A stretch of DNA of 33,124 nt from Desulfobacterales bacterium (lineage in GTDB: Bacteria; Desulfobacterota; Desulfobacteria; Desulfobacterales; JAHEIW01). Shown here piece after piece: positions 517 to 4,158 of the stretch. Numbering within the stretch: the first letter of the stretch is position 1; each line of letters starts with the position of its first letter. The stretch lies in NCBI GenBank assembly GCA_030066985.1, contig JASJAN010000073.1:1-33124 (forward strand), read 5' to 3'. The translations under genes were made by a program, and so were the position numbers. The notes below the pieces were generated by a model that saw only the letters and a list, made by a program, of their open reading frames with translations, searched no databases and had not been told where the DNA came from.

Positions 517-804
517 TGAATCACCACCTAATTTCACATTTTATTGAAACATTTATACATCAAGAGATGTTCAAATATCAAATTAAACGAGACTATTTCA
601 GCAATAGCACGCTGAGTTTTTGGAAAATGTTGCATAACAGGCGCTTTGACGTTATACACTCTTTTAGTCTGTGAGACCTATTTAGAGTTTGGAGAAAACT
701 TGCTAATGCAAGCCTAACAAATTTCCCTTAAAAGAGATAAAACCAAGCATTGAATGTTAGTTATCATGGATAGATCGAAATTGACTTCAATATAGGAGGA
801 GCAG
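517..804. other. Divergent intergenic region before the cytochrome unit
   Basis: This AT-rich gap separates the GFA gene from the selenocytochrome gene and must hold promoters for both. I see no close match to a sigma70 or sigma54 consensus. The only clear signal is the strong ribosome binding site AGGAGG at about 795-800, serving the ATG at 805. Short frames on either strand here have no ribosome binding site or recognisable protein features. Confidence 0.4.
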
Positions 805-2961
805 ATGTTGATCCGGAGCGCACCTTCTCGTATTTTAGTTTTCATGACTTTTTTTACGCTTTGTATCTCTTTCACATTAGGCCTGACCGATTTATCGGCC
901 CAATCCAGTTGTGTGTCCTGCCACACGCAAGAAAATCTGCTGAAAAAAAACCTTGCGCCGAAAGTAGAAAAGAAGTCGGCCTTAACCTCTGGGGCTGGCT
1001 GAGGCGGATCCGTGGCTCCGTTGGAGCCTCAAAAAAAGGTTCTGGTGGCAACTGAATTTTTAGACAGTGAACATGGCGAGATCGAATGCGAAACCTGCCA
1101 TGGCGGCAATGCCGATGCGCAAGATAAAGGCCTTGCACACGGAGGTATGGTACCGAGTCCCTCCTTAAGCGATCCGGAAGGCACCTGCGGTGAGTGCCAT
1201 GAAGAAATTGCCGCTTCGGCTAAAAATTCGCTGCATGTCACTTTGGGGCCCTTTGCAACCATTCTGGAGAGTCGTACTGACCAGGACAAATACAAGACCA
1301 TCGACATGGGCCGTGAGCGCCATTGCAGCCAATGCCACACCAGCTGCGGCGGCTGTCATGTCAGCCGGCCGGCATCGGTGGGCAAGGGATTTGTCAACGG
1401 CCACCTGTTCAAGGCCCGTTCGGACCTGATTAATCAATGCACGGCTTGTCACGGCAGCCGGATTGGCAATGAATACCTTGGCAAAAGGGGCCAGGGTGAC
1501 ATTCACGCCATCAAGGGCAACATGGTTTGTATTGACTGCCACAAAGCCGAAGAGATGCATGCGGCTGCTCCTGAAGACTTGAAAGGCCGTTATCATCTAA
1601 AAGAGGCCGCCAAATGTACAGATTGTCACAAGGATTTGCAGCGCGGCCAAATACGGAACCACAATATCCATATCGGCAAGGTGCAGTGCCAAGTCTGCCA
1701 CTCTCAAACCTACACCAATTGCTACAGTTGCCACACGGGCACTGACACGAAGGGGCTGCCCTATTATATCAACCAAAAAGACATCGAAAGCATAAAAATC
1801 GGCCTGGCTTATGAAGCGGATGTCCCGGCAGCGGACTTCAATTTTATGCTGGTACGGCACATTCCCATAGACCCAGAGCTTTTTGCCTATTATGAAAAGA
1901 ACGTCTTTGCAAAATTCGACGAGGTTCCCACCTGGAAAAGGGCCTCACCGCATAACATTCAACGCAAAACCTGGCAAGCAGCCACTTGCAATCACTGCCA
2001 CGGAAACCGGGATTTATTCCTGTCCGATAAAGACCTGCTGGATTATGAGATCAAGGCCAACCAAAAAGTTGTCGTATCCGATATAAGGATACCGGCCAAA
2101 GTCGCGAGAAGCGCAAAACTTGAGATCGACACCTCCGGTGTTAAAACCGACCGGGTAGTGGATGCCCGGTGGCTCAAAGACAACATTGGCAAAGAAAATA
2201 TGGTCATCCTGGACGCCCGTACCGAAGATGCTTACAAAAAGGGACATATAAAAGGTGCCGTGCTGCTCGACCCGATGAAAAGCGGCAAACTGCGCTGGCC
2301 CTGGGAGACCGACACACCCCAACAGCTGCTCGAACCGGAAGAAATCGCCACAGTGTTCGGTGCAAAAGGCATCGCGGTGGAAGATCATATCGTGGTGTAC
2401 GACAATGATGCTTGGAAAGCTGCTTTTCTGCTTTCCGTGTTGGATTACTGCGGAGCCAAAAACATATCGTTTCTGGAGGGCGGCATCGATACCTGGCGGC
2501 GAAACGGCTATTCTATGAGTACCGAAACACCGGTTATCGAGCCCAAAACATTTGAGGTTGACCTGCGGCCGCAATTTATCGTGGACAATCAATTCGTGCG
2601 AAAAAATCTAAACAGTTTGGATGTGATGATTTTAGACATCCGTACCCTCGATCAGTCTAAAAAGCTGACGAAGCATGCCCGCGCACTGAGCTACGGCAGC
2701 ATTCCCGGATCCGTTAAATTCCCGGTTTACGGTCTTTACATGGACCATGCCCAGCTGAAATCACCGCAAGAACTGCTGTGGATCCTCCAACAGCGCGGCA
2801 TCACGCCGGATAAAACGGTGGTAATCACTTGCAACACCGGTGCCTGGGCCGGTGCCGGATTCTTTATGTTACGGTATTTGGGATATCCCGATGTTCGAGT
2901 GCACGATGCGGCTTGGGTTGGTTGGGAAGAATTTGTTCGCTACCCGGGTTGCGGATACTAA
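805..2961 (+). CDS. Selenocysteine-containing undecahaem cytochrome c with tandem rhodanese domains
   Basis: Read through the in-frame TGA at 1000-1002, this gene gives a 718-residue periplasmic protein with Sec at residue 66 (context SGAG-U-GGS). Residues 1-32 form a Sec-type signal peptide. Eleven CxxCH haem sites start at residues 36, 95, 128, 174, 181, 212, 242, 271, 295, 306 and 395. Two rhodanese domains follow (about 449-572 and 595-715). The first has Asp (VVYD, about 533) at the catalytic position; the second keeps Cys676 (ITCNTGAW). The part after the TGA has ten haem sites but no export signal, so it makes sense only fused to the part before it. AGGAGG precedes the ATG. A tetrahaem cytochrome follows 83 nt downstream. 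The likely role is periplasmic electron transfer coupled to a sulfur or selenium species; the substrate is unknown. The main alternative is a nonsense mutation with restart at the GTG at 1012. Confidence 0.8.
1000..1031 (+). promoter_or_regulatory. Candidate bacterial SECIS element following TGA 1000-1002
   Basis: After the TGA there are 11 nt, then GGCTCC (1014-1019), loop GTT (1020-1022) and GGAGCC (1023-1028), a perfect 6-bp hairpin. The apical loop begins with G followed by U, and 17 nt separate the UGA from the loop. As I recall, this fits the general bacterial SECIS pattern read by SelB, and the 11-nt offset matches the distance in E. coli fdhF. An alternative pairing, TGAGGC (1000-1005) with GCCTCA (1026-1031), would place the UGA at the base of a longer stem. 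Confidence 0.72.
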
Positions 2962-3044
2962 TCGCCCAAGCAACGTAGATGAAACTGAAATGTCGTAGAA
3001 TTTTAGTTTGTAGGGTCAGCAACATGACTTCTGGGAGGTAAGGC

Positions 3045-3530
3045 ATGTTAAAATCGATAATGACCGTTATTGTGATTTTCATCTTATTGATCGCCGGCGA
3101 TCTGGCGGCTGTTGCCGAAAAAGCAGAAGTGACAATGGATGCTATTTTCGTGCCGGTGGGCAGGCTTGCGCTTGCGCCGCCGGTCGGTGTTACACCCAAA
3201 CGGTCGGCGGTGGCTTTCCCGCACTCACAGCATTTCGGTTACACCTGCAAAACCTGCCATCACAAGTGGGATGGAAATTCCCAGGTGCAGAGCTGTACCG
3301 CATCGAAATGCCATGATCAGCTATCCTCAATGGGGAAATCCAAAAGGACCAGGGCGAATAAACGGGAAGCGATTCGCTACTATAAATATGCATTCCACCA
3401 ACAATGTATCGGCTGCCACAGAGAGATAAAAAACCATAATAAAAAACTGGAACGGTCAAGAAAAAAGATCACGCAACCACTGCAGTGGCCTGGACCAACC
3501 TCATGTGTTGGTTGTCATCCGAGAGAATAA
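3045..3530 (+). CDS. Class III (c3-type) tetrahaem cytochrome c
   Basis: The 161-residue protein has an N-terminal signal peptide (hydrophobic residues 6-23) and four haem-binding sites: CKTCH at 68-72, the longer CTASKCH at 84-90, CIGCH at 121-125 and CVGCH at 154-158. One CX4CH among CX2CH sites, together with an upstream FPHSQH that can supply distal histidines, is typical of class III cytochromes c of sulfate and metal reducers. It is presumably a soluble periplasmic electron carrier. The ribosome binding site GGGAGGT lies just upstream of the ATG. It sits 83 nt after the selenocytochrome gene on the same strand and is followed by a terminator, so the two are probably cotranscribed and may exchange electrons. 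The direction of flow cannot be read from sequence. Confidence 0.88.
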   Translation: MLKSIMTVIVIFILLIAGDLAAVAEKAEVTMDAIFVPVGRLALAPPVGVTPKRSAVAFPHSQHFGYTCKTCHHKWDGNSQVQSCTASKCHDQLSSMGKSKRTRANKREAIRYYKYAFHQQCIGCHREIKNHNKKLERSRKKITQPLQWPGPTSCVGCHPRE

Positions 3531-3657: not shown

Positions 3658-4158
3658 TTAATTTTGGTTTTGGGTGAGGTCTTTGAGGTATTTCGGAACC
3701 GGACGGTTAGCGCTCGTCAGCGCTTCTACCATGCGGGATGCGACGCCGCTGAGAGTCCAAATTCGATCTTTGCGTGGAATGATGTCGCGACCCTCCGCAT
3801 CGAGAAACCTTATGACCTGGTAGTTCCAGGCCGGTTCGTTGAAGCGTTTGAGGAGTATTTCATCCATGCCGCCATTGCGGTTGTTGTAAACGAGAACCGG
3901 ATAGAATTCATTTTCAATGGCCTCGACAAGAGAGGGATGGGTCAGAACTTCCTGGCCAAATTTTCGCACGCCTGAACATCCCGGGACCTCCTGGAAAAGG
4001 ACGAGGACCGGTATTCCGGTCTCAGCGCTGTTTTTTAAAGCAGCATCAAGATCACGCCCCCATTGAACGTCACCGACTTCGACAGGATTTTCTATTGTTT
4101 GACCGCTAAACGCTGTCAAGACAATTGTAAATGTCATCACAATGGTAAGCACTTTCAT
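3658..4158 (-). CDS. Periplasmic thioredoxin-fold protein with incomplete active site
   Basis: The 166-residue product begins with a signal peptide (residues 1-19). A thioredoxin-like domain follows: strand PVLVLFQE, then the active-site loop VPGCSGVRKFG, and an EPAWNYQVIRFLD segment carrying the proline expected opposite the active site. Related proteins, as I recall them, have a CxxC here. This one keeps Cys61 but has Val64 (codon GTG) in place of the second Cys, so it could form mixed disulfides but not an internal one. It may be a monothiol redox or binding protein. AAAGGAAAA lies upstream of the ATG, somewhat distant. It converges on the cytochrome unit, which suggests but does not prove a periplasmic redox role related to it. 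Confidence 0.75.
   Translation of the reverse strand: MKVLTIVMTFTIVLTAFSGQTIENPVEVGDVQWGRDLDAALKNSAETGIPVLVLFQEVPGCSGVRKFGQEVLTHPSLVEAIENEFYPVLVYNNRNGGMDEILLKRFNEPAWNYQVIRFLDAEGRDIIPRKDRIWTLSGVASRMVEALTSANRPVPKYLKDLTQNQN

Follow-up and report, generated by a model that had tools for sequence, protein, structure and literature searches.

The window, meaning the whole stretch of 33,124 nucleotides that was analysed from a Desulfobacterales bacterium, carries at positions 805 to 2961 of its forward strand a gene with an in-frame TGA. With this TGA read as selenocysteine (U), the gene encodes 718 residues with a lone U at residue 66. The features of the locus are the following:

794 to 799, + strand: Shine-Dalgarno-like AGGAGG ahead of the ATG at 805 (direct reading, rated good)
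805 to 2961, + strand: the whole predicted gene of a Sec undecahaem cytochrome-tandem rhodanese
805 to 999, + strand: N-terminal part with a signal peptide (by eye) and the haem-1 motif CVSCH (910 to 924)
1000 to 1002, + strand: UGA, predicted to encode Sec66 in the motif GAGUGGS (GxGUGG in the family), from homologue alignment
1014 to 1028, + strand: SECIS-type hairpin of 6 bp with a GUU apical loop and a UGA-loop spacing of 17 nt
1087 to 2001, + strand: haems 2 to 11, ten CxxCH motifs (motif reading)
2164 to 2502, + strand: rhodanese domain 1, with Asp in place of the catalytic Cys
2569 to 2931 (borders approximate), + strand: rhodanese domain 2, with the catalytic Cys676 at 2830 to 2832
3045 to 3530, + strand: tetrahaem protein resembling cytochrome c3, 83 nt further downstream (best match to cytochrome c3 chains of the PDB at E 4.8e-12)

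The original prediction had described two open frames in one register that are split only by the TGA, with a signal peptide and the first CxxCH before it and ten CxxCH and two rhodanese domains after it. The common register and the motif counts were confirmed: one CxxCH lies 5' of Sec66 (residues 36-40) and ten lie 3' of it, and these 11 motifs place the protein among the multihaem cytochromes c, which are recognised by several CxxCH. The haem-1 motif was invariant in three alignments of relatives. As for the signal peptide, the N-terminus is indeed hydrophobic and its reading as an apparent export signal is a judgement by eye. Both rhodanese stretches were recovered by PF00581 (105.2 bits, cut-off 22.2). 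The first shows Asp at the place of the catalytic Cys (VVYDND) and the second keeps Cys676 (CNTGAWAG), the arrangement expected of a tandem rhodanese with its catalytic Cys in the second domain; since the Cys is found only there, only the C-terminal domain looks active, as had been proposed. In a full-length structural model (pLDDT 77.1), the matches listed fall on the rhodanese part, and residues 444-711 aligned with PDB 1uar (Z 27.8, rmsd 2.8, 258 aligned), confirming the tandem rhodanese. A model of the cytochrome part on its own (pLDDT 88.1) had no PDB Foldseek match at E 0.001, which is not evidence of a new fold; compared with 44 chains it gave one VIA row (Z 2.3), and with the viral library nothing at E 0.001.

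Because the UGA truncates the gene, such a cytochrome is easily lost from annotation. In the window, the mechanical list of open reading frames starts the gene at GTG 1012, whereby the signal peptide, haem 1 and Sec are lost. The nearest relative (locus L018) is also a fusion, with 65% identity over residues 151-717, on a contig that begins 3' of the Sec position.

We examined the conservation of the UGA in two sets of relatives, which overlap by at least 11 sequences. Within a phylum sample of 395 genomes, a protein search at E 1e-20 matched 84 genomes, many of them through the rhodanese half alone, and a profile of the cytochrome half matched 48 genomes at E 1e-40 (54 match rows). The Sec position is spanned by 52 of the 54 rows, and 51 of these 52 contain an in-frame TGA, the place of which was checked in the fetched loci only. 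Among 30 fetched loci from this genome search, the aligned column held Sec in 28 and Tyr in one and was missing in one, corresponding to UGA in 28 of the 29 loci that reach it. In a named collection, 280 of 298 pattern matches were confirmed as relatives; in the best 80 of these 280, the position was UGA in 74, Tyr in five from one clade and truncated in one. The motif reads GEGUGG in 56 of the 74 named loci with UGA. Cys was seen at this position in none of the loci read, that is, the best 80 of the 280 named relatives and the fetched genome-search loci. Sec cytochromes occur in Desulfobacterota and in Chloroflexota bins, where the members from Chloroflexota (six loci), Spirochaetes (one) and Acidimicrobiaceae (one) are metagenome bins that may include misbinned contigs.

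The five Tyr genes (L111, L120, L123, L124 and L127) come from Desulfocapsa/Desulfobulbaceae and one further bin. In a tree that includes 11 genome-search loci and omits L104 and L070, they join the window protein with a support of 85/90 on long branches. These genes also have no such hairpin (best −2.2 kcal/mol) and thereby form a natural control. The original prediction had proposed to ask of homologues whether position 66 is UGA or Cys: the UGA was kept in 74 of 80 named loci, Cys did not appear in the loci read, and 5 of 80 had Tyr, an unrelated residue, and no hairpin, which we read as a secondary loss of Sec in one clade. As the clade retains the rhodanese fusion without Sec, and G339, the one Tyr-clade genome searched, has selB, Sec is not a requirement for every member.

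The hairpin described in the original prediction, a perfect stem of 6 bp with a GUU loop starting 11 nt after the TGA, was found as stated (GGCUCC-GUU-GGAGCC). Published limits for bacterial SECIS elements, given in PMC13188914, are a loop of 3-9 nt, a stem of 4-16 bp, G in the first two loop positions, a spacing of 16-37 nt and −7.5 kcal/mol. The window hairpin, with −9.1 kcal/mol, lies within all of them and so passed the bSECIS check that had been suggested for the region after the TGA. With stems coded without interruptions, the limits hold for 69 of 89 distinct Sec sequences, while among 1480 control positions of these genes 32 comply; the other 20 Sec sequences fall outside the strict limits as coded, mostly by energy or an interrupted stem. 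Taken by itself, the window hairpin does not stand out in folding from its shuffled versions (z −0.1 to −1.6 for three lengths), and an Rfam scan of 700-3300 returned a single match far below its gathering score. One sequence is therefore no proof; the comparative evidence provides it.

For this comparison, we used a gapless alignment of 74 sequences (592 cells). In total, 92.1% of the cells were paired and 72 cells showed double changes, and 0 of 500 shuffles reached as high a value for either measure, whereas only 33-49% were paired when the pairing partners were slid by 1-3 columns. Two of five covariation measures were weaker: the count of pairs with double changes was reached by 19 of 500 shuffles and that of further pair types by 18 of 500. 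The 74 rows were picked by a protein motif in which the 3' residue has to be Glu or Ala, and this choice possibly biases the alignment toward pairing. Left out were 15 of the 89 distinct Sec sequences: five with a hairpin shifted by inserted codons (L102, L105, L118, L119, L125) and ten from divergent subfamilies (L035-L040, L043-L046). L028 and L070 were left out as too short. On the tree, the pairs 15-29, 16-28, 17-27 and 18-26 need at least 2, 2, 3 and 1 changes of Watson-Crick state, respectively, and these few changes imply a modest number of independent compensations. As the U-A/G-C swap at pair 18-26 is a single change, sequence counts overstate the events.

Codon choice points in the same direction. 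Within the hairpin, Leu is UUG in 71/71 cases (15.4% elsewhere in the same genes), Pro at the loop is CCG in 71/71 (32.8%), Glu is GAG in 68/68 (44.5%) and Ala is GCU in 59/68 (14.8%), all of these being counts of related sequences. The peptides APLEP (GCU CCG UUG GAG CC) and EPLAP (GAG CCG UUG GCU CC) are mirror images that form the same stem, a swap in which the protein sequence is dictated by the RNA hairpin.

The host genome (5.07 Mb in 81 contigs, 97.8% complete) contains selB (376.4 bits), selA (614.1), selD (355.8) and tRNA-Sec (75.2), all above curated cut-offs; hence the four components that were to be sought in the same genome are present. Its selD (C48:37903-38817, locus L048) itself holds an in-frame TGA and is therefore probably a selenoprotein as well. 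Across the phylum sample, selB was above cut-off in 45 of the 48 cytochrome genomes versus 353 of all 395, so that its co-occurrence with the cytochrome is uninformative. Of the three cytochrome genomes without selB above cut-off, two had no match at E 1e-40 and one a match below the cut-off; incomplete bins may explain them.

Together, the conserved UGA, the covarying hairpin, the constraint on synonymous codons, the loss of the hairpin along with the UGA and the presence of selA, selB, selD and tRNA-Sec leave us nearly certain, on comparative grounds, that UGA 1000-1002 encodes selenocysteine (Sec66), in support of the original prediction. Decoding as Trp or by generic read-through was rejected in view of the one UGA before the gene end, at GxGUGG, in the aligned loci, the covarying hairpin and the Sec machinery, and a sequencing error or pseudogene was rejected in view of the conservation over many genomes. 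That there is no read-through at all, with either such an artefact or a short haem-1 peptide gene followed by a separate gene from GTG 1012, is hardly credible: this GTG is preceded by GAGG 7 nt upstream and mechanical calling begins there, but its product would lack a signal peptide to allow haem attachment, and the UGA with its motif recurs in 74 of 80 named loci together with the covarying hairpin.

Next, we compared the protein with known systems. Multihaem cytochromes with Sec, of unsettled function, are already known, chiefly through ExtKL. The prediction of ExtKL as a Sec cytochrome dates from 2007 (PMC1914089), and PMC5877670 and PMC6148476 discuss it as a Sec protein; the remark in the original prediction on Sec in multihaem cytochromes of Geobacter-type bacteria was right and refers to ExtKL. 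PDB structures named MccSep (9wt8, 9wt9) include a U325A mutant, and a fetched ExtKL protein matches MccSep at E 2.6e-153, on which basis we equate the two; the literature search found no paper on MccSep. ExtKL/MccSep (NF040886) resembles the window protein in being a multihaem cytochrome c with one Sec from an in-frame UGA, and its gene cluster also encodes the rhodanese-like ExtH (PMC5877670, PMC6148476). However, ExtKL has five haems and its Sec lies C-terminal of them in PDGUPTPNR (7/8 loci read), whereas the window protein has 11 haems, the Sec in GAGUGGS between haems 1 and 2 and the rhodanese in the same chain. NF040886 gave no match to the window protein at E 0.01, and ExtKL had no match in the window's own genome at E 1e-30. 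Membership in ExtKL was rejected by motif, Sec position and haem count. The 21 ExtKL genomes among 198 searched include none of the 48 cytochrome genomes among 395 searched, a comparison confounded by ancestry from which nothing is drawn. In one genome (G027, C12:96118-98740), two adjacent genes of the ExtKL family are without an in-frame TGA, and a third copy on contig C9 has one.

Other likenesses are weaker. ExtN, a cytochrome of the ext cluster with 10 haems according to PMC5877670, resembles haems 2-11 of the window protein at residues 83-409 (NF040967), with 41.8 bits against a cut-off of 200, and the match ends short of the segment with haem 1 and Sec. The tandem thiosulfate/3-mercaptopyruvate sulfurtransferases (PDB 1uar, 1urh, 1e0c) resemble residues 444-711; unlike them, the window rhodanese is fused to a predicted Sec cytochrome behind an apparent export signal. 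The best profile match among solved structures was PDB 1sp3 ('cytochrome c, putative'; 30.4 bits, covering a part of the haem region), which we take to be a Shewanella member of the octahaem tetrathionate reductase family; the model of this family, TIGR04315, gave 18.1 bits with a cut-off of 375. No model of NCBIfam 20.0 was above its cut-off. A catalogue from 2026 with 119 families of prokaryotic selenoproteins (PMC13188914) lists, in the part covered here, ExtKL, a CXXCH porin family and a TIGR04315 member annotated in GenBank as a selenoprotein, and that part has no entry that fits the window protein. Nor is the protein described in the accessible text of PMC11976967, PMC10553843, PMC8318568, PMC2702500, PMC13047784, PMC12998232 and PMC12545173, and the literature search recognised no report of a Sec undecahaem cytochrome by title, most subscription papers being beyond its reach. 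The suggestion that Sec cytochrome and tandem rhodanese together may be new fits the literature search, the catalogue and NCBIfam. Judging from the sequence, we rate the window protein as a Sec multihaem cytochrome, a known kind, but of a different family, with another Sec site and another partner.

We recorded the position of rhodanese genes in the 80 named loci. A rhodanese was fused in 6; in 59 it followed on the same strand at no more than 1500 nt and in 3 it lay upstream, which makes it fused or adjacent in 68/80. It was present only at a distance in 2, absent despite sufficient room in 8, and in 2 there was no room. Two fusion orders were found: the tandem rhodanese follows the cytochrome in the window, in L018 and in the five Tyr genes, and the Sec cytochrome comes after two single rhodaneses in L114, from one Dehalococcoidales bin (Chloroflexota). 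L114 groups with the other Chloroflexota row, L126, at 100/100, and fusion requires at least two changes on the tree. Both the separate fusions and the adjacent position in most loci speak for a joint function of the Sec cytochrome and the rhodanese. Among 50 neighbour rhodaneses in two clusters, 21 have a YCKxGGR loop and 21 did not fit the loop pattern. Variants with thirteen haems (L063, L064, L086) have either no rhodanese (L063) or a distant one (L064, L086), and the C-terminus of L063 is a hydrophobic stretch.

Sequence comparison thus establishes a widespread family of predicted selenoproteins, undecahaem cytochromes c with Sec in a GxGUGG loop between haems 1 and 2 and a paired rhodanese, which as a rule either follows as the next gene or is fused to the cytochrome. 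That this family exists as described and that Sec and rhodanese act jointly on sulfur or selenium species is, in our assessment, fairly probable. Genomic linkage favours sulfur among sulfur, selenium and metal chemistries, and we tentatively take sulfane sulfur as the substrate, at somewhat below an even chance. We propose a periplasmic module in which sulfane sulfur would pass from a rhodanese persulfide to Sec, with electrons exchanged via the haems. The rhodanese Cys (Cys676 in the window) would take up sulfane sulfur as a persulfide, with thiosulfate, polysulfide or a low-molecular persulfide as the source. Selenocysteine is a stronger and largely ionised nucleophile, and the selenolate on its flexible glycine-rich loop would take over the sulfur to form a Se-S adduct. 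Electrons would then arrive through the haem chain, to which the neighbouring tetrahaem cytochrome c3-like protein (3045-3530) may supply them as an electron partner, and hydrosulfide would be released; under sulfide-rich conditions the flow could run in reverse, the direction of the electrons being a guess. In full, the proposal, more tentative again, is a class of selenium-dependent persulfide/polysulfide oxidoreductases in the periplasm of anaerobic sediment bacteria, in which rhodanese-bound sulfane sulfur passes to Sec and is reduced or formed by a multihaem wire, with Sec replaced in one clade by Tyr and never by Cys in the loci examined. If true, selenium would connect the chemistry of persulfides with haem electron wires in anaerobes that cycle sulfur, and the frequent rhodanese pairing makes this hypothesis directly testable.

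Three other functions were weighed against a persulfide/polysulfide oxidoreductase. The first, a chalcogen-oxyanion reductase, would be a periplasmic counterpart of the Geobacter ext cluster that reduces selenite or tellurite, with the rhodanese binding reduced selenium and Sec being catalytic or delivering selenium. A Sec cytochrome, multihaem cytochromes and a rhodanese-like protein likewise occur together in the ext cluster, which reduces selenite and tellurite less well when its porin ExtI is lost (PMC5877670). ExtN is moreover the nearest NCBIfam profile of the cytochrome part, far below its cut-off, with ExtM at 22.7 of 800 bits; for the rhodanese part, 3-mercaptopyruvate sulfurtransferase (94.3 of 250 bits) is followed by ExtH (30.7 of 200). 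We nevertheless regard this function as unlikely: the Sec site is unlike that of ExtKL, which was not found in the window's genome, and among the one-domain rhodaneses scanned (two neighbours and L114) ExtH appeared weakly in one, the best matches being of MoeB, PspE, GlpE or similar type and all below cut-off. In addition, no Rieske or cytochrome b genes were recognised among the 16 neighbour clusters whose sequences were read, of 40 listed, and the lone outer-membrane-like cluster (DUF3373, five loci) had no NCBIfam match in the copy scanned.

Alternatively, Sec could be structural or tuning, for instance as the axial ligand of a haem without distal His in a plain electron-transfer cytochrome, with the rhodanese serving haem-protein protection or repair. 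In 63 sequences with 11 haem motifs, the invariant His outside the motifs number nine (eight in 63/63, the ninth in 62/63 with one gap) and a tenth, His173, occurs in 57/63. With nine to ten such His for 11 CxxCH, one or two haems may lack a distal His and may have another ligand or an open site. The replacement of Sec by Tyr, another possible haem ligand, but never by Cys in the loci read would suit this role too. The glycines flanking Sec (GxGUGG), however, suggest a mobile group, and a ligand role leaves the frequent rhodanese pairing unexplained; we consider it improbable. Far less likely still is a role of Sec at the cell surface in binding or reducing a metal or organometal (Hg, As), with the rhodanese as the source of sulfide: several listed prokaryotic selenoproteins do have mercury or arsenic links (PMC13188914), but the 16 neighbour clusters read contained no recognisable gene for metal resistance.

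The surroundings of the cytochrome genes offered further observations. In the window, next to the predicted Sec gene, the reverse strand encodes at 3658-4158 a protein related to the thioredoxin-like (seleno)proteins of the VPGUxxT family, but shortened and with Cys (EVPGCSGV); it scored 207.9 bits with the model NF041383 (cut-off 275), over 137 of its 287 positions. All five loci of the Tyr clade share a gene just upstream, of which the only copy scanned (L111) is DUF3373. Directly upstream of the Sec cytochrome, 10 loci have a small protein, and the one copy scanned (L081:7628-7978) belongs to Nitro_FeMo-Co (NifX-like). Genes resembling molybdenum formate dehydrogenase, together with a maturation protein, were recognised by eye near the cytochrome in L064, L071, L080, L103 and L125, and the formate dehydrogenase is a possible electron donor. 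At L051:4010-7359, Pfam domains indicate two regulatory proteins near the cytochrome, a sensor kinase whose Tll0287-like domain contains CLTCH and a response regulator of sigma-54 type; by clustering, similar regulators occur in 27 loci and similar kinases in 14.
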